A stretch of 64,000 nucleotides of DNA, from assembly GCA_014529675.2 (NCBI GenBank), contig CP076040.1:3429894-3493893 (forward strand). Reading direction: 5' to 3'. This DNA is from Opitutia bacterium ISCC 52 (GTDB lineage Bacteria; Verrucomicrobiota; Verrucomicrobiia; Opitutales; UBA2995). The translations under genes and the position numbers were made by a program. Every line of letters starts with the position of its first letter. Position 1 is the stretch's first letter. The notes beneath the pieces are model-generated. The model searched no databases and was not told the DNA's origin. It worked only from the letters and a program-made list of their open reading frames with translations. Positions 54,270-64,000 of this stretch are shown piece by piece.

Positions 54270-57200
54270 CTACCCCGCGTCAAGTTGCTTGATCAGCTCA
54301 TCAACCGCGCGTTTCAATTGGGGATCTACCTTCCTTGATTTATAAGCCGGCGGATTCTCGACAAGGATATCCGGGACGGCGGGATTGTGCTCCATATTAA
54401 GCTCGGTTTCTTTGACGAACCAGCCACGGAGAGGCATGCGAACGTAGGAACCGTCGACTAATCCGTAGCCACCGGTTGAAATGACCGCACCGAAGGTTGG
54501 CTGACCCACCAACGTTCCGAGCCCGAGGGATTTGTAGGCATGAGAAAAGATCTCAGCATTGCTGTAGCTGTTTTCGTTACAGAGGGCGACAGATGGTTTT
54601 GAATTGGAAGCCAATGGCAGGCGAGTACTTGGGTAGTAGCTCTTAAACTGCAGATGCTCCTCCGCCAAATTGGATGCCGCTCCTCGAGGGATCGTGTAGG
54701 CGTGCTGATCTACATTGAGCACAGCCATGAGGTAGTCCGTGGTCCAACCACCGCCGTTGTAGCGCACATCAATCACAATCCCTTCCTTGCCATAGCCAGC
54801 TGCAATTAGCTCGGTCTGAAAACGTTCGAAGCTATCCCAGCCCATGGCCCGAATGTGCAGATAACCCAATCGGCCACCGGAAAAGTCATCGACAAGTTCA
54901 CGACGAGCTTCAACCCAGGCATCGTAGTTTTCCGAGCTCAAAGAACCTACCGGCCAAATAATGCTCTCAAGCGTCTCCCCTTCCCTTTCGATCTCCAAAA
55001 GCACTTCGTTGTTTGCCTTGTCGGCGAAGAGAGAGAATACGTTCACATCGTTGGCCACTGGTTCTCGATCGACGGATATGATTACATCGCCGACTTCAAT
55101 CGGCGTAGAAGCTTTAGTTAGTGGACTGGAGGGTACGATTGAGCTAACCCGGAAACCGTCCTCGGTATTCACACCTTCCATACCGACCAATCCAGATTTC
55201 TGGGACTGAGTCTCCTTGGGATTATCCACCCCACGCATTCCCATATGACTCGCATTGAGCTGACCCAACATCAGGTTGAAGGTGTATTGAAAGTCCTCCG
55301 TGGTAGAGGCAGCCTTGGCCAGTGGAAGGTATTTATCTCTGAGAGCCGAAAAATCATAGCCGTGGAAATTGGGGTCGTAGAATCCACGATCAAGGGCACG
55401 CCAGGCATCATGGTAAATCTGCTCCTTCTCCCCAGCATTATCAATTTGGATGCGGGAGGATACAGCGAGTTTTTCGACTTTATTATCTTTCGTCACAATC
55501 CGCCGAATTACCCCACCCTTAGTCAGAGCGTAGACGTGATCACCTTTTCCTGAAAGGTATAATGCACGAGGCCCACTTTTATCCCCGATGACCGTTTTCT
55601 CTTTTTCGCCATCCCAGCGGACTTTGTAGAGGTTTCGGACCGTTTCGTAATCCTGCCGACCAGGACTACCAATGGTGTAATAGATCATCTCACCTTCCTT
55701 ATCGAAAACGAATTCTCCTTCATTCCCAGACTTGGAAGTCACCTGAACCAGGCGCAGATAGATGCGATCGAAATCGATCTCGATGGCGGGGACTTCCTCA
55801 TCCTCATCACCCTTCTCTTCCTCTTCGTCTTCATCTTTCTCTTCATCTAACTCTGCCTCTTCCTCACTCTCCGTTTCTTTCGAGGCTTCCTCGGGCTTAT
55901 CACCCTTCTTCTTGGAAGGTGCTTTCTTTTCTTTCTCCTTATCGTCTTTTTGCTGACGCTCGCGCTCCCATTGCTCGTCTGATTTTTCCCAATCCGATTT
56001 TTTCAACCAGGCAAACCACACATCGGCATCGCCGTTATTTCGTTCGGAAAGGAAACCCAACTTGCTCCCATCACAACTCCAGGCCGGGCTGGAATCATAA
56101 CCGGGATGCATCGATACGTTCACGGGATCCGAGGAATTGTCGACCGGGTGGATAAAGATCTCCGAGTTGTAGTTCAGGTCATCTTGCGAGTAGGCAATCC
56201 AACGACTGTCTGGAGACCAACTGATGTCCGCTGGCTCGGCCCATCCGTCGAGTAGCGTTACGGCATTAGAAAAAGCACCCTCCTCATCTACTTCGGCGGC
56301 AATCAACTTACTGTTTCCTTGAAGATAAACGAGCTGCTTTCCATTTGGCGCCAGGATCGGTGCAAATTCCTCTTCCGGCGTATCGGTAAGCTTTCGGGTC
56401 TGCGTCTTAAGGGTTCTAAATAGATTCTCCTCATCTTCGTCAGCCGACTCGATGAGGTAAAAGTCGTTTTGCCCATCCTGATCGGAAGCGAAGAGAATGG
56501 CCTGATCATTCAGCCAGATGACATCGCGTTCCCGAGATGGGCTATTGGTTAAACGCACACTGCGATCATCCTCCTTGTCATTGCGGGTAACAAACAAGTC
56601 TCCACGAATCGCATAAGCCGTGTGCTTTCCATCCGGTGACACCGCATACTCGTCGACCTTGTCTTTCATCGTCTCAGAAACAACAGGGTCAAATCGAACA
56701 TCCGCCGACAGCTCGATCTCAAGAAGAGAGCTGGACCTTGAACCGACCTTTCGAAGAGACACATCAGCACCGTGCTGATAAACGATCTGTTTGGTGCGTG
56801 GGCTGAGGTCGAAGGAGTTCACACCGAACTCCTCTTCAAAAGTGATCTGTTTGACAGATCCTTTAAGGGTCGTTTGGAAGACATTGTATTTTCCTTCGCG
56901 GGACGAAATGAAAAGCAGCGTCGAGTCATTCAGCCATTTGGGGGAGAAGTCGTTCCCTTCATAATCGGTGAGCTGCGTGTATTCCTCACTCTCCATATCA
57001 TAGATCCAGACATCGCGATTGGCAGGCCCCTGATAAGCTTCACGTTCGATCCGGCAGGTACCACGCACAAACGCGATCTTACTTCCATCTGGTGACACCA
57101 CGGGATCGAATCCCAAGGCATCCATGTATCGTGCTGGCGTTCCCCCTTCGACTGCAGCTCGATAGATTTCATACTCTCGTTCTACTTGAGCATATACACG

Positions 57201-57566
57201 CCGAGTCAGAAAGAGAATCGATCCATCCTCATTATAATTAGCCAAATTATCGGTCGCCGAGTGATGCGTATGTCTCGTCGGAACCCCACCCTGGCTGGGC
57301 ATGGAAAAGATATCGTTGTTACCATAACGATCACTTTGAAAGGCCAGGCGCTCGCCATCCAAGCTCCAACGCGGATTGGAGTCGTAGCCCTCATGCACGG
57401 TCACTCGGAAAGGACGCCCACCTTTCGATGAAACGGTCCAAATGTCACCCTGATAACAAAAGGCCACCTGTTTGCCATCCGGGCTGATGGCGGGTTGAAG
57501 TACGTAGCCAAAGGCTGGGCTGGCTAATAGAAAAAAAGTGGTTAGAATACAGAGGAGACTTTTCAT
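54270..57566 (-). CDS. Tricorn protease homologue
   Basis: 1098 residues. A signal peptide (LLCILTTFFLLASPAFG) is followed by beta-propeller repeats of PD40/WD40-like type (about 25-330 and 360-540: ISPDGKQVAFCYQG, FSPKWLNDS, FAPILAPNGKQLVYL). An acidic linker lies at about 580-640. Then a tricorn C1 region, a PDZ domain (about 830-910, DVIISVDREPVANDVNV) and an S41 core (VIDVRYNGGGWTTDYLM, NENSYSNAEIFSHAYKS with the catalytic Ser). It degrades peptides. The signal peptide suggests a periplasmic place, unlike archaeal tricorn. Confidence 0.88.
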   Translation of the reverse strand: MKSLLCILTTFFLLASPAFGYVLQPAISPDGKQVAFCYQGDIWTVSSKGGRPFRVTVHEGYDSNPRWSLDGERLAFQSDRYGNNDIFSMPSQGGVPTRHTHHSATDNLANYNEDGSILFLTRRVYAQVEREYEIYRAAVEGGTPARYMDALGFDPVVSPDGSKIAFVRGTCRIEREAYQGPANRDVWIYDMESEEYTQLTDYEGNDFSPKWLNDSTLLFISSREGKYNVFQTTLKGSVKQITFEEEFGVNSFDLSPRTKQIVYQHGADVSLRKVGSRSSSLLEIELSADVRFDPVVSETMKDKVDEYAVSPDGKHTAYAIRGDLFVTRNDKEDDRSVRLTNSPSRERDVIWLNDQAILFASDQDGQNDFYLIESADEDEENLFRTLKTQTRKLTDTPEEEFAPILAPNGKQLVYLQGNSKLIAAEVDEEGAFSNAVTLLDGWAEPADISWSPDSRWIAYSQDDLNYNSEIFIHPVDNSSDPVNVSMHPGYDSSPAWSCDGSKLGFLSERNNGDADVWFAWLKKSDWEKSDEQWERERQQKDDKEKEKKAPSKKKGDKPEEASKETESEEEAELDEEKDEDEEEEKGDEDEEVPAIEIDFDRIYLRLVQVTSKSGNEGEFVFDKEGEMIYYTIGSPGRQDYETVRNLYKVRWDGEKEKTVIGDKSGPRALYLSGKGDHVYALTKGGVIRRIVTKDNKVEKLAVSSRIQIDNAGEKEQIYHDAWRALDRGFYDPNFHGYDFSALRDKYLPLAKAASTTEDFQYTFNLMLGQLNASHMGMRGVDNPKETQSQKSGLVGMEGVNTEDGFRVSSIVPSSPLTKASTPIEVGDVIISVDREPVANDVNVFSLFADKANNEVLLEIEREGETLESIIWPVGSLSSENYDAWVEARRELVDDFSGGRLGYLHIRAMGWDSFERFQTELIAAGYGKEGIVIDVRYNGGGWTTDYLMAVLNVDQHAYTIPRGAASNLAEEHLQFKSYYPSTRLPLASNSKPSVALCNENSYSNAEIFSHAYKSLGLGTLVGQPTFGAVISTGGYGLVDGSYVRMPLRGWFVKETELNMEHNPAVPDILVENPPAYKSRKVDPQLKRAVDELIKQLDAG

Positions 57567-57646: not shown

Positions 57647-58753
57647 CTAAAACAACTCAGCCAACTTCTTATCCAACGCCTCACCCCGCAGATTCTTGGC
57701 GATGATACGCCCGTCTCCATCGAGAAGAAAACTCATGGGCAATGCGGAAACGTTATAGGCTTTGGCCATGGGTGAGTTGAGTGCTTGGAGGTCCGAAATT
57801 TGAGGCCAGATGACACCGTCTTGCTGGGAAGTGCGTGACCAGATGGTGCGGTTACTATCCATATTGACTCCCAGGATATTGAATCCATTTTTTGAATACT
57901 TTTCCAAGACCTTGGGGAAGTGTCGGTTTTCGACGCGACAAGGTCCGCACCAGGAAGCCCAAAAGTCGACCAGGACAACCTGGCCTTTAAAATCGTCGAG
58001 GGATCGATCGGTTTCATCCAAGTCCTGACCAGCTAGAGGAGCCGCCTTTGCCCCGATGGCTGTCAGCTTAAATTTCCTAAGCCGCTCCTGCATACTCTTG
58101 GTGATGGCCAGGTCGGGATGCTTTTCCGCGAAGGATGCTACCTGTCTTTCTATTTCCTCGATCCGGTGACTATCGTCCCAACGAAGCGAGGTGGCATAGA
58201 GGGCGATGGATGTTCCGGCTTTTTCTGCCGTGAAATCATTGAGCTCCCGTTTGTGAGCAATATAACCATCCACCTCTGCTTGAGCGAGCGGAGCCATTTT
58301 GTCCGGTGACATTCTCATGGCAGTCGCTTTGTTGAGGGCTGCTCGGGGAGGATAAACCAGACGGTAAAGAGAGTCTTTGCGGTAGGCTTCGTAATCCAGC
58401 AACACTTTTGTATCCGGAGAGCCCGCTACAGTAAAATCAGATGCCTCTTTGGATAGAATCGAAATCTCGACTTGTTGTCCATCGGCCGCAGCAAGAGGAA
58501 TTTTCCCCCAACCAGAAATAGCGAGAGTAAAGTAGCCGGGGTCTCCAGTGACCTCTATTTCAAAGGAGTTGTCCGACTGGACCTGAGTCGACAGTTCCTC
58601 CCTCTGACTGCGAGCATCCAGGTCCTGACGGTAGAGTTTAACTGTACTTCCAGTTGCGAAGACCGATCCCGAACCGGAAATGGTGAAATCGGCCTGGGCC
58701 GACGCACAGAGAGTAATGAAGCCGGCCAGAATTGAAAAGGTGGGAAGACGCAT
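57647..58753 (-). CDS. Thioredoxin-like TlpA/ResA-family protein with N-terminal domain
   Basis: 368 residues with signal peptide (to QADF, about 22). Residues 25-110 form a beta-rich DUF4369-like domain, then a helical middle, and a thioredoxin domain from about 240. The CxxC is WCGPC (Cys269 and Cys272) in VDFWASWCGPCRVENR. It reduces disulfides in periplasmic proteins, e.g. in cytochrome maturation. The cis-proline region is LPMSFLLDGDG. It lies 80 bases after tricorn in reverse order (upstream on the same strand), so both may be one operon. Confidence 0.85.
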   Translation of the reverse strand: MRLPTFSILAGFITLCASAQADFTISGSGSVFATGSTVKLYRQDLDARSQREELSTQVQSDNSFEIEVTGDPGYFTLAISGWGKIPLAAADGQQVEISILSKEASDFTVAGSPDTKVLLDYEAYRKDSLYRLVYPPRAALNKATAMRMSPDKMAPLAQAEVDGYIAHKRELNDFTAEKAGTSIALYATSLRWDDSHRIEEIERQVASFAEKHPDLAITKSMQERLRKFKLTAIGAKAAPLAGQDLDETDRSLDDFKGQVVLVDFWASWCGPCRVENRHFPKVLEKYSKNGFNILGVNMDSNRTIWSRTSQQDGVIWPQISDLQALNSPMAKAYNVSALPMSFLLDGDGRIIAKNLRGEALDKKLAELF

Positions 58754-59242: not shown

Positions 59243-61771
59243 ATGCCCTTTTTTCGCTCGGTACACCTCGCCGCATCCCTGTTGATGGCAACCTCGGTAT
59301 TTGGTCAGTCTATGAACTCCGCCCAGCTCCAAAATGAGCTTCAAAAACTCAACATGGTTGGTTCGGTGCTTTTCGTGGCTGCCCACCCGGACGATGAAAA
59401 CACCGCCCTGCTTACCTACCTGGCGCAGGAGTTAAAACTGGAAACCGCCTACCTTTCACTGACCCGCGGGGGCGGCGGTCAAAATCTGATTGGTCCGGAA
59501 TTAAAGGAAAACCTGGGACTGATTCGTGCGAATGAGCTACTGCAGGCCCGCAAAATTGATGGGGCCAAGCAACTCTTCACCCGAGCGCGCGACTTCGGCT
59601 ATTCCAAGAACCCGGAGGATACGCTGGAAAACTGGCAGGAAGAAAAAGTCCTGGGCGACGTGGTTTACGCGGTTCGTTCCTTTAAGCCGGATATCATCAT
59701 CACCCGTTTCAACCCCGATGCCGGGCCCACCCATGGTCACCACACGGTATCGGCTCAACTCGCGGTGAAAGCATTCAGCCTGGCTGCCGATCATAAGCAA
59801 TTTCCTGAGCAGCTCAAGGATGTGGGCGTTCACCAGACCAAACGCATTTTCTGGAACGGCTATGGTCGACGGGGCCCTGGAGGCAGAGCTCCGAGTATGG
59901 CCAATGAAACCCGTGAAGTCATTTCCCTTGAGATTGGAAAATATAATCCGCTTCTGGGGACCTCTTACACAGAAATCGCGGCGCGCAGTCGCAGCATGCA
60001 CAAGAGTCAGGGCTTCGGCCGGGCTGGAAACCGTGGTCCACAAACTGAACGACTTGTTTTACTAGACGGAGAGCCGACGAATGGAGACATGCTCGATGGA
60101 ATCGATACGAGTTGGTCGCGTTTTCCAGGTGGCAATAGCCTGACCGAACGATTCTCAAACATAACTTCAGAGTTTGATCCGCGGGCGCCGTGGAATGTCG
60201 TGCCCGAATTGTTGGAGGCTGAAAAGCAGCTAGCTGAACTGGGTGATCATCGAACCATCCACACAAAACGAGAGACCATCAAGCATCTGGTCGCAGCTGC
60301 ACTCGGGCTCCACTTTGAAGCTCGGTCACCAAGCGCTTACCTGACACCCGGTGACAAGGTAGAGCTCGACGTTGAACTCACCAACCGCTCGCCGATTAAG
60401 TCAGTTGCCAAGAGCGTGACCATCAGAGCTTTTAAGAGCAAGCAATGGCCCAAGTCGATTGAGTTGAAAAGCATCTCGGGTTTAAATAAATCACTTGGAC
60501 AGGATCAATCTGAGATAACGTCCGTGAATTTTAGCTTAGAAAATGATGCGCCGCTCACGCAGCCCTTTTGGCTAGAAGAAGAGCCAGAAACAGGCATCTA
60601 CCATTTTAAGAACCAACGGCTTTTGGAGCTCACGACGGTTCCTGCTCCCATGTCGGTGACAGCCGAGATCGAAATAGACGGCCATACCGTTGAACTTTCC
60701 ACACCGGTCATTCAACGAGTCAGCGATCCGGTCAAAGGCGAAGTGCATCACCGTGTAAGCATACGTCCCAAAGCGGTTTTAAAACCGGATGCGACGGTCA
60801 TGCTATTTGAGACTAACAACGGCAAAGCAGTTGAGCTCACGGTGTCGGCCAATGCGGGTCGACTTTCCGGAACGCTGATCGCTGAGGCACCCGAAGGCTG
60901 GTCGGTCGATTTTGACCAATCGGAAGTTTCAATAACTGGTGCCAATTCAGAGCAAACTCGGATCGCCACGATCCATCCGCCAGCCAACGCATCGGAAGGC
61001 ACGATCTATTTCAAACTTCGCACTGAGAACGGAGAGACCTACGACCTCCGCTCGAACCAGATCGAATACGATCACGTTGGCCGCCAACCCATTCTGGCCA
61101 AAGCGGCAACCAAGGTGACTCGCCTGGACTTGAAACGAGCCGGCAACCGCGTCGCTTGCGTAGTGGGCGTGGGTGATCCGGTACCTGAAACTTTGAAACG
61201 TATTGGTTATGAAGTCGACCTTATCGATGTCGCCAATCTCGACCGTAATCAATTGAAAGGTTATGACAGTGTCATCCTGGGTCCTCGCACCTTCGATGCA
61301 CTGACCGGACTGGACAAGAAGTTCGAAGAGCTTCTGGCCTACGTGGAGGACGGAGGCACACTCATATCGCAATTTAACACCACCAGCTCTCGGACCAAGT
61401 CGAAGTTCAGCTCCCCCTACCCGCTTCAGCTTTCCCGAGACCGTGTTTCCGAAGAACATGTGGAAATGCGCATGCTGAAACCCAAGCATCCGGTGTTCAA
61501 CGTGCCGAATAAGATCAAGGCCAAGGACTTTGACAATTGGATCCAGGAACGAGGCCTTTATTTTTCAAATAACTGGGACGAGAAGTACGAAGCGGTTATC
61601 TCGGCCAACGATCGCGGAGAACCGCCCAGAGACGGCGGACTCTTGATCGCTCCGTACGGAAAGGGCTGGTATGCCTACACGGGTTTATCCTTTTTTAGAC
61701 AGTTGCCGGAGGGAAATCCGGGAGCCATAAGATTCTTTGTAAATTTAATTTCTTTAGGACATGGAAACTGA
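59243..61771 (+). CDS. Secreted PIG-L deacetylase with large C-terminal region
   Basis: 842 residues. Signal peptide (LAASLLMATSVFGQ), then a PIG-L/LmbE domain (about 38-260) with zinc-binding AHPDDE at 47-52, TRGGGGQNLIGPEL, and PTHGHHT. PIG-L enzymes remove N-acetyl groups from sugars (GlcNAc-inositol, GlcNAc-malate, chitobiose). After 340 there is a beta-rich region (YLTPGDKVELDVELTNRSP) and, from about 640, a class I glutamine-amidotransferase-like or ThuA-like fold (VILGPRTFDAL, AYVEDGGTLISQFN). Its stop overlaps the next small gene by 11 bases, and the SSS gene follows, so an operon is clear. Confidence 0.85.
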   Translation: MPFFRSVHLAASLLMATSVFGQSMNSAQLQNELQKLNMVGSVLFVAAHPDDENTALLTYLAQELKLETAYLSLTRGGGGQNLIGPELKENLGLIRANELLQARKIDGAKQLFTRARDFGYSKNPEDTLENWQEEKVLGDVVYAVRSFKPDIIITRFNPDAGPTHGHHTVSAQLAVKAFSLAADHKQFPEQLKDVGVHQTKRIFWNGYGRRGPGGRAPSMANETREVISLEIGKYNPLLGTSYTEIAARSRSMHKSQGFGRAGNRGPQTERLVLLDGEPTNGDMLDGIDTSWSRFPGGNSLTERFSNITSEFDPRAPWNVVPELLEAEKQLAELGDHRTIHTKRETIKHLVAAALGLHFEARSPSAYLTPGDKVELDVELTNRSPIKSVAKSVTIRAFKSKQWPKSIELKSISGLNKSLGQDQSEITSVNFSLENDAPLTQPFWLEEEPETGIYHFKNQRLLELTTVPAPMSVTAEIEIDGHTVELSTPVIQRVSDPVKGEVHHRVSIRPKAVLKPDATVMLFETNNGKAVELTVSANAGRLSGTLIAEAPEGWSVDFDQSEVSITGANSEQTRIATIHPPANASEGTIYFKLRTENGETYDLRSNQIEYDHVGRQPILAKAATKVTRLDLKRAGNRVACVVGVGDPVPETLKRIGYEVDLIDVANLDRNQLKGYDSVILGPRTFDALTGLDKKFEELLAYVEDGGTLISQFNTTSSRTKSKFSSPYPLQLSRDRVSEEHVEMRMLKPKHPVFNVPNKIKAKDFDNWIQERGLYFSNNWDEKYEAVISANDRGEPPRDGGLLIAPYGKGWYAYTGLSFFRQLPEGNPGAIRFFVNLISLGHGN

Positions 61772-61904
61772 TTCGAACAACGAAGTGATGTCGTCGGTAA
61801 AAGACGAGAGCAGCTCTGGCTGGACACGCTTGTATATCCTTGTGGTTGTGGCTCTCGTGTCACAGATCGCAATTTACGCCTGGCTTACGAACGCTTTCGC
61901 CTAA
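61761..61904 (+). CDS. 47-residue single-helix membrane protein
   Basis: A small gene whose ATG at 61761 lies inside the PIG-L gene and shares 11 bases with its end; GGAC precedes it. The product has a charged, polar first 20 residues (METDSNNEVMSSVKDESSSG) and one hydrophobic helix (LYILVVVALVSQIAIYAWL, 24-42). It stands directly between PIG-L and an SSS symporter, 21 bases before the latter, so it may be an accessory subunit of the symporter. I know no named family. The short length makes chance possible, but the overlap and clean helix argue for it. Confidence 0.7.
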   Translation: METDSNNEVMSSVKDESSSGWTRLYILVVVALVSQIAIYAWLTNAFA

Positions 61905-61925
61905 GAAACGAGTTTCGTATCATAC

Positions 61926-63626
61926 ATGAGCACATTCGATATCATAGTTCTGGGTAGCACCCTGATCTCCATTGTATTCTTCGGCGTTTGGAAGACACGC
62001 AACGACAGAAAACTGGACGAATTCCTGAGAGGTAGTTCAAACCACTGGGGCACCATCGGACTCTCAGTGATGGCGACCCAAGCCAGCGCGATCACCTTCC
62101 TCTCCACACCCGGCCTCGCTTATGACAGCGGCATGGCGTTTGTGCAGAACTACTTCGGCATGCCTTTGGCTTTGATCCTGATTGCGGTGGTATTTGTCCC
62201 CATGTATTACAAGCTGGAACTGCGTTCGGTCTATGAGTTTCTCGAACATCGATTTGATACGAAGACGCGTACGCTGGGTAGTATTATCTTTCTCATTCAA
62301 CGTGGCTTTTCTGCAGGCATAACCATTTACGCTCCATCGATCATTCTAACGAGTGTGCTCGGGTGGGACATGAATACGACTGTCATCGGCGTGGGATTAG
62401 CCGTCATCATTTACACAGTTACAGGAGGTAATCATGCGGTCAGCCTAACTCACAGATACCAAATGACTGTGATTCTGACGGGGATGGCCATCGCATTTGG
62501 AATTGTGGTTTACAAGATCTCCAATCATGCTGGCTTTGTGGAAAACCTGAGTGTAGCCGGAGCGCTCGGACACCTGAACGTGATTGATTTCTCATTCGAT
62601 ATCAACAAGCGCTATACACTCTGGTCCGGTCTTTTGGGAGGCTTCTTTCTGTCCCTCTCATACTTCGGGACCGACCAGTCACAGGCACAACGTTATATGT
62701 CAGGCCACTCGATACGAGACAGTCGTCTGGGCCTAATGTTTAATGCGCTCCTTAAAGTGCCGATGCAGTTCATGATCCTGCTATTGGGCGTATTAGTGTT
62801 CGTATTTTATCAATGGGAAAAACCTCCAGCCACCTTCCTCCCTGCATCCATGACGGAAACGGCCATGGAACAGGATGCCCTGGCCTACCAGAATCTTGAA
62901 GATGCATTTACGGAAAACTTCGAGAGTCAGCAATCTGCTTTGACCGACTATGTAAATGCAATGCGATCAGGAGATGAAGTCCTTGCAGCAAGCTCGAAGT
63001 TGGAGGTTCAAACAGCCGGAGCTGAAATCAAGGAAGCTCGCGCCAACCTGAAGGATCACATTGCGACGGTCACCGGACAAGCGAGCATGAAGGAAACGGA
63101 TTATGTGTTCATACATTTTGTGCTCAATGAACTCCCCATCGGCCTCATCGGATTGCTGGTTGCGGTAATACTGAGTGCGGCGATGTCTTCCACGGCTTCC
63201 GAACTGAGTGCACTCTCCACCATCTCTACCGTCGACTTTTACCAGAATCACTTTGTGAAAGACCGCGGCGACCGTCATTACATGAGGGCATCGCGCATCT
63301 TCACCGCCATCTGGGGAGGGCTGGCCATTCTGTTTGCGCTGTTTGCCAGCATGGTAGAAAGCCTGATCGAAGCGGTGAACATTGTAGGGTCCCTATTTTA
63401 TGGCACGGTGCTCGGACTTTTCCTGGCAGCCTTCTTTATCAAGCGCATCGGAGCCCACGCGGCTTTTATTGCCGCCGTTATCGCCCAGATATCCGTTCTC
63501 GTCATCTACTTCACCAACTTCATTGAGATTGGTTACCTGTGGTATAACCTGATTGCTTGCGTCCTGGTGATCGTATTGAGTTTAATCATACAGACATTCT
63601 CTGGTAGCAAGCAAGTTGAAGCCTAA
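61926..63626 (+). CDS. SSS-family sodium:solute symporter with inserted helical loop
   Basis: 566 residues, about 13-14 membrane segments. QASAITFLSTPGLAYDSG and LVAVILSAAMSSTASELSAL are family marks; DEFLRGSSNHWG lies in the first loop. A 90-residue polar, helical insert (about 300-395, FTENFESQQSALTDYVNAMR) between two membrane helices is longer than in most SSS proteins, and may contact the small partner protein. Probably imports the product of the PIG-L enzyme or another sugar. Its TAA overlaps the ATG of the next gene (TAATG). Confidence 0.85.
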   Translation: MSTFDIIVLGSTLISIVFFGVWKTRNDRKLDEFLRGSSNHWGTIGLSVMATQASAITFLSTPGLAYDSGMAFVQNYFGMPLALILIAVVFVPMYYKLELRSVYEFLEHRFDTKTRTLGSIIFLIQRGFSAGITIYAPSIILTSVLGWDMNTTVIGVGLAVIIYTVTGGNHAVSLTHRYQMTVILTGMAIAFGIVVYKISNHAGFVENLSVAGALGHLNVIDFSFDINKRYTLWSGLLGGFFLSLSYFGTDQSQAQRYMSGHSIRDSRLGLMFNALLKVPMQFMILLLGVLVFVFYQWEKPPATFLPASMTETAMEQDALAYQNLEDAFTENFESQQSALTDYVNAMRSGDEVLAASSKLEVQTAGAEIKEARANLKDHIATVTGQASMKETDYVFIHFVLNELPIGLIGLLVAVILSAAMSSTASELSALSTISTVDFYQNHFVKDRGDRHYMRASRIFTAIWGGLAILFALFASMVESLIEAVNIVGSLFYGTVLGLFLAAFFIKRIGAHAAFIAAVIAQISVLVIYFTNFIEIGYLWYNLIACVLVIVLSLIIQTFSGSKQVEA

Positions 63627-64000
63627 TGAGCGAACCCGTCATATGCTTCGGGCAGCAGCCCTGCGGTATTTTTCCGAATCGTTTTGTGTTTTCGAAAATT
63701 AGGACCGCTCGACGACTGCAGTCCGAGATCGGCGGAAAGATTATTTTTTTCCTCCACGACAGTGACCACGATCATCGGGAGACATGCTCGAAACTTACCA
63801 ATCGGCATACCAATAAAATTGAGCGCGTTAATTTCGAAGTCCTCAACAAGACCCAGAAACTTTACTCCCCGCTTTATTGCAAGACCATCAAACCAGAGTG
63901 GAAGGAAAAAACCCGGCGTTGTCTTCCCAACCTGGTAGGTCCGGAATGCGTCGACGTATTTTCCGATGTCGAGTCGGACAATGTCACTGAGTTTTGCATC
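63626..64000 (+). CDS. BshC-like protein, start only (cut by window)
   Basis: 125 codons from ATG 63626, which overlaps the symporter stop by one base (TAATG), open to the window end. The N-terminal CFGQQPCGIFPNRFVFSKI, then IIFFLHDSDHDHRET, follow the order of the BshC core (QPG-LF---KI---L---PVFWIAxEDHD). BshC adds cysteine in bacillithiol synthesis. Sequence identity is low, so the name is inference. Its link to PIG-L (the fold of BshB) makes a thiol or glycoconjugate pathway worth testing. The rest of the protein is outside the window. Confidence 0.5.
   Translation, partial: MSEPVICFGQQPCGIFPNRFVFSKIRTARRLQSEIGGKIIFFLHDSDHDHRETCSKLTNRHTNKIERVNFEVLNKTQKLYSPLYCKTIKPEWKEKTRRCLPNLVGPECVDVFSDVESDNVTEFCI

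Follow-up and report, generated by a model that had tools for sequence, protein, structure and literature searches.

A half-size BshC-like protein as the probable cysteine ligase in a bacillithiol operon of Verrucomicrobia and Obscuribacterales

The operon described here encodes a protein of 259 amino acids that very probably works like BshC, that is as a reduced and diverged replacement cysteine ligase, a reading that is built on its fold, its conserved positions, its linkage and its exact complementarity with canonical BshC. The best explanation of our findings is that the final step of bacillithiol synthesis in Verrucomicrobia and Obscuribacterales is carried out by this protein, termed short BshC in the following. 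The bacillithiol pathway itself and each of the flanking families are already known.

The window, i.e. the whole stretch of 64,000 nucleotides that was analysed, covers positions 3,429,894-3,493,893 of a single 4.8-Mb contig and displays only 125 residues of the BshC-like protein. An earlier note on this DNA had described four coupled genes on one strand and had proposed reading past position 64000 for BshA and the end of the BshC-like gene. All of its coordinates check, and upon extension of the reading past the window end (stretch L002) BshA was found and the BshC-like gene proved complete at 259 aa. The complete unit is a six-gene bacillithiol operon extending beyond the window end (Table 1), with all genes on one strand in the order secreted PIG-L, 47-aa one-helix protein, SSS symporter, BshC-like protein, BshB1-like deacetylase and BshA. 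The first two genes overlap by 11 bases, the second and third are separated by 21 bases, the symporter gene shares one base with the gene for half-size BshC (TAATG), the latter overlaps the BshB1-like gene by 11 bases and a gap of 6 bases precedes bshA. BshA exceeds the cut-off of its equivalog model (TIGR03999, 340.7 vs. 273.7 bits); the BshB1-like protein stays below that of TIGR04001 (131.3 vs. 182.5 bits) with a match spanning residues 6-221 of 237. The family matches of the PIG-L, SSS, BshA and BshB1 proteins together with the recurrent order and the conserved microprotein demonstrate that the cluster is not due to chance. Since BshA and a cytoplasmic BshB1-like protein are encoded directly downstream, all steps of the conventional cytoplasmic pathway are encoded in the operon, the unusual part being the half-size BshC.

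Table 1. Position of the operon genes and of neighbouring genes (window numbering unless L002 is given; positions above 64000 lie beyond the window)
Feature	Position	Strand	Basis
Secreted PIG-L/LmbE metalloamidase, 842 aa	59243..61771	+	PF02585 over cut-off
47-aa one-transmembrane-helix microprotein	61761..61904	+	ORF conserved between PIG-L and SSS
SSS-family Na+/solute symporter	61926..63626	+	PF00474, TIGR00813 over cut-off
Half-size BshC, 259 aa	63626..64405 (to 64000 inside window; L002:4620-5399)	+	Fold, linkage
BshB1-like deacetylase	64395-65108 (L002:5389-6102)	+	TIGR04001 below cut-off
BshA	65115-66242 (L002:6109-7236)	+	TIGR03999 over cut-off
Tricorn-like protease	54270-57566	-	PD40 propeller, PDZ, peptidase S41; signal-peptide-like N-terminus
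TlpA/ResA-like thioredoxin-fold protein	57647-58753	-	Signal-peptide-like N-terminus
DUF2911 protein, ~180 aa	L002:7926-8471 (beyond window)		Signal-peptide-like N-terminus
Cysteine synthase, cysK	L002:13203-14282	-	TIGR01139 over cut-off

Among the neighbouring genes, that for the TlpA/ResA-like protein is divergent from the operon, and most of the closest relatives (L028-L031, L034-L037) likewise have this divergent gene ahead of PIG-L. The gene for the tricorn-like protease has the same orientation. The DUF2911 protein is a conserved operon neighbour that is encoded downstream of bshA here and upstream of the PIG-L gene in most other loci, from other lineages. The cysK gene is located about 6 kb downstream of bshA.

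The 259-aa protein is not filed as a member of the BshC family, because its score is below the curated cut-off and its length and architecture differ from those of the family. A profile check of the last gene, as the earlier note had proposed, went against BshC at that cut-off (PF10079, 12.8 vs. 27 bits), a result that is outweighed by fold, profile-profile comparison and co-occurrence. No NCBIfam model matched at E values up to 10, and a canonical BshC was not detected elsewhere in this genome by PF10079. PF10079 is nevertheless matched by 14 of 70 relatives of the short protein (best E 8.4e-6) and is the sole widely recurrent family among them; the sub-threshold PF10079 matches in genome searches map within the short BshC gene itself. 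When the short BshC profile was aligned with five canonical BshC sequences using hhalign, a score of 35.6 was obtained, as compared to a mean of 16.3 (SD 2.6, highest 24.8) for 60 column shuffles. The GQQ, K, DHD, E, Q and GxxE..Y positions that are invariant in the five canonical proteins are in register in the short form; the Arg preceding that Gln is displaced by a single alignment column, and further canonical invariants have not been retained.

When the 259-aa protein or its profile was used to search the PDB by sequence, nothing but chance matches resulted (thioredoxin-like, 0.009; GST, 1.3), and a search at the level of the fold was therefore needed. The AlphaFold model (pLDDT 93.2, pTM 0.91) finds the crystal structure of BshC, 4WBD, as its first structural match (Foldseek E 3e-10) and superimposes on it with a VIA Z score of 19.5 and an rmsd of 2.8 Å over 243 of 259 residues, at 15-16% identity to canonical BshC in structure alignments. 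The next family, class-I LysRS, follows at Z 14.0 (1irx), and CysRS at Z ~8. It is hardly credible that the short protein is a BshC remnant or a regulatory relic in an incomplete pathway: half the length of BshC and a score below the Pfam cut-off are what such a relic might exhibit, but length is steady at 253-273 aa in 113 loci, about 50 columns are invariant in 70 sequences, the predicted fold is confident over the full length and the short gene is always accompanied by bshA where this can be assessed.

The distribution of the short form was followed in an order sample of 177 genomes and a phylum sample of 319 genomes, with ten BshA genomes common to both. In the order sample BshA occurs in 22 genomes, short BshC in 23 that are scattered over several families, with 22 genomes shared, and canonical BshC in none; the 23rd short BshC genome is a half-complete MAG in which the gene is a contig-end fragment. 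The phylum sample contains 22 genomes with BshA, 20 with short BshC and two with canonical BshC, the latter being exactly the remaining two BshA genomes. Pooling both samples yields 34 BshA genomes, 32 with the short and two with the canonical form, none with both or neither. Canonical BshC over cut-off is also absent from all 50 genomes reached via other short-form loci, some of which repeat sample genomes. Fisher tests by genus gave p values of 2e-14 (order sample) and 1e-17 (phylum sample), both of which are optimistic due to shared ancestry, although the genes occur in a patchy manner among families. In the two Verrucomicrobiota genomes with the canonical form (loci L145 and L146 of G217 and G284) the cluster reads methyltransferase-BshC-BshB-BshA and is devoid of SSS or large PIG-L genes nearby. 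The methyltransferase of these clusters is possibly NmbA-like.

The earlier note had made its reading depend on a gene order conserved in relatives, and the order SSS-short BshC-(BshB1)-BshA in fact recurs in most of more than 100 loci; in the order sample the symporter gene is missing beside short BshC in one genus only. A scan of GTDB genome contigs returned 306 stretches encoding relatives of short BshC, and in the 80 of these 306 that were examined the usual neighbourhood consists of DUF2911, large PIG-L, microprotein, SSS, short BshC, BshB1 and BshA. Some carriers are known by MAG record titles only (Rokubacteria, Betaproteobacteria, Acidobacteria, Gemmatimonadetes, Akkermansia). In the order Obscuribacterales, 21 of 53 genomes contain BshA, with the short gene adjacent in 19 of the 19 cases where the contig is long enough. 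In a quick tree the 19 Obscuribacterales sequences cluster together within the verrucomicrobial ones (support 87, drawn open), a pattern that fits an apparent single transfer of the operon, albeit support in that part of the tree is less than strong. At the sensitivity applied, no relative of either form of BshC was detected in viral contigs, and the plasmids searched for canonical BshC gave three records only (Bacillus, Paenibacillus, Deinococcus).

Fold and linkage would by themselves fix neither cysteine as the amino acid nor bacillithiol as the product. The short protein could ligate another amino acid, in which case the operon would yield a novel conjugate of GlcN-malate rather than bacillithiol. 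The strong divergence from canonical BshC (see above) and invariants of its own, among them C124, C216, H218 and W209, are in line with such a deviation, which we nonetheless regard as very unlikely given that BshA is over its equivalog cut-off, that the positions common to canonical BshC are retained and that the two forms replace each other exactly among BshA genomes.

From sequence, predicted fold, operon linkage and complementary distribution we infer the following chemistry, product and salvage role. BshA would join UDP-GlcNAc to L-malate, BshB1 would take off the acetyl group to produce GlcN-malate, and the 259-aa protein, having kept the class-I-synthetase-like Rossmann core of BshC without its inserted domains or coiled coil, would join cysteine to GlcN-malate and thus produce bacillithiol. 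PIG-L, microprotein and the SiaT-like symporter could constitute a periplasmic salvage arm, in which the secreted PIG-L would cleave N-acyl-GlcN-malate compounds, either GlcNAc-malate or S-conjugates of bacillithiol that had been exported, and GlcN-malate would return to the cytoplasm via the symporter for short BshC. Salvage is preferred as the role of this upstream arm because a cytoplasmic BshB1-like gene is part of the operon in this genome; taken alone, the assignment is tentative, its chances lying somewhat below even.

The earlier note had recognized PIG-L and BshC-like folds of the bacillithiol pathway, a secreted PIG-L and a hidden micro-protein in the four genes, and each of these points is borne out. 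The large PIG-L is over the PF02585 cut-off (59.6 vs. 28.2 bits) and consists of a signal peptide, a catalytic domain, Ig-like domains and a C-terminal ThuA/GATase1-like domain. A signal-sequence-like N-terminus, judged by eye, is present here and in nearly all PIG-L loci with a readable start. The metal motifs of the catalytic domain, AHPDDE and HGHH, are kept in 67 and 69 of 69 loci, respectively. In the AlphaFold model, residues 37-290 resemble MshB (Z 20.7) and BshB (Z 18.2) and residues 634-842 are ThuA-like; the best NCBIfam match, Mca, is below cut-off. A plasmid search for large PIG-L matched mostly alphaproteobacteria, including two proteins alignable over nearly the full length whose plasmid-borne genes have a ROK regulator and sugar ABC transporters as neighbours (L177, L178), and no bsh gene occurs in the two plasmid neighbourhoods read.

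Of 68 loci, 64 have an ORF for a one-helix protein of 45-55 aa with a W-x-x-[AVL]-Y motif and a hydrophobic helix between the PIG-L and symporter genes; it is absent in four Obscuribacterales loci. Fusion of the microprotein to the symporter was considered and ruled out where the gap between the genes vanishes, as the microprotein is absent there. The protein is probably an accessory of the symporter. The latter is over the cut-offs of both PF00474 (131.9 vs. 22.8 bits) and TIGR00813 (208.1 vs. 184 bits), and its nearest solved relative is SiaT (5nv9, E 1.2e-39), a sialic acid symporter that carries an acidic amino sugar. It is from this cargo and the gene order that GlcN-malate is guessed, by analogy, as the substrate transported.

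The earlier note had also put forward a different route of periplasmic deacetylation, import and ligation. Such a route is not needed in the organism studied here, with its complete cytoplasmic pathway, and may serve as a second arm; in seven relatives it is the only visible route. In 17 of 108 loci the operon has no BshB1 gene, a trait with a minimum of eight changes on the tree, and short BshC is directly followed by BshA in L041, L042, L043, L047, L065, L069, L073, L075, L086, L090, L102, L103, L132 and L144. Twelve BshB1-less genomes were scanned for all PIG-L proteins, and seven of them contain exactly one, the large signal-peptide form with intact metal motifs, so that no PIG-L-type deacetylase other than the secreted one is visible there; by coordinates it resides in the operon in five of the seven. 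In three genomes titled Rokubacteria with a BshB1-less operon, other BshB-like genes are present. A periplasmic deacetylation route is therefore possible in these lineages, as judged from incomplete MAGs. Synthesis could also be split between compartments: GlcNAc-malate would leave the cytoplasm, lose its acetyl group through the action of the secreted PIG-L and come back as GlcN-malate through the symporter for ligation, a scheme compatible with the short protein as the ligase. The recurrent lack of BshB1, the seven genomes with a single, secreted PIG-L and the SiaT-like symporter in the same operon speak for it. It is nevertheless unlikely: the operon of most carriers, among them the organism studied here, includes a gene for a cytoplasmic BshB1-like protein, an exporter is not known, genes may be missing from the MAGs and the signal peptides were assigned by visual inspection. 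A narrower form, in which a minimal BshC is combined with a two-compartment pathway confined to BshB1-less lineages, where the secreted PIG-L would deacetylate or recycle GlcNAc-malate derivatives outside the cytoplasm and symporter and microprotein would import GlcN-malate for ligation, appears rather doubtful. For the operon studied here, cytoplasmic synthesis with an upstream salvage arm remains the preferred reading.

For Verrucomicrobia, no low-molecular-weight thiol has been documented or predicted (PMC6282198). A survey of bacillithiol producers from 2025 demanded BshC matches of similar length and more than 80% coverage (PMC12719100), and organisms with a half-size BshC would thereby be missed. 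By 2015, BshC activity had yet to be demonstrated in vitro, and the mechanism of the enzyme was described as unknown (PMC4360819). The literature searched, in which few subscription papers were covered, contains neither a half-size protein replacing BshC nor bacillithiol synthesis in Verrucomicrobia or Obscuribacterales, nor does any paper there connect bacillithiol to Melainabacteria, or bshC to a symporter and PIG-L. If our reading is true, Verrucomicrobia gain a glutathione-like antioxidant, bacillithiol, that nobody had predicted for them, and the operon provides a prediction testable on a cultured strain. Furthermore, a half-size, single-core BshC in which about 50 columns are invariant offers a simpler object in which to locate catalytic residues. 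The repeated loss of BshB1 from operons that encode a secreted PIG-L and a symporter poses a question of compartment.

Among known systems, BshC (PF10079; 4WBD) is closest to the short protein. Both have the Rossmann core, the GQQ, DHD..E and Q..GxxE..Y positions and the company of bshA and bshB, and they are mutually exclusive among BshA genomes. Canonical BshC possesses a coiled-coil dimerisation domain and connecting peptides (PMC4360819) and comprises ~520-540 aa, whereas 259 aa leave no room for these inserts; the parts absent from the model are consistent with the connecting peptides and the coiled-coil dimer domain. The short form further differs in staying below the curated profile cut-off and in sharing its operon with a secreted PIG-L and an SSS protein. 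With class-I lysyl-tRNA and other class-I synthetases it has the general Rossmann synthetase fold in common, but the structural match is weaker than that to BshC, tRNA-binding domains are lacking and the context is a bacillithiol operon. The large PIG-L resembles the LmbE-like amidases BshB, MshB, Mca and Bca in fold and HxDD..H metal site and is distinguished by its signal peptide, its Ig-like and ThuA-like domains and its size of ~842 aa; its likeness to the bacillithiol-conjugate amidase Bca is one of fold alone. The symporter, finally, belongs to the same family as SiaT, its nearest solved structure, and is set apart from SiaT and other SSS proteins by its microprotein partner and its place in a bacillithiol operon.
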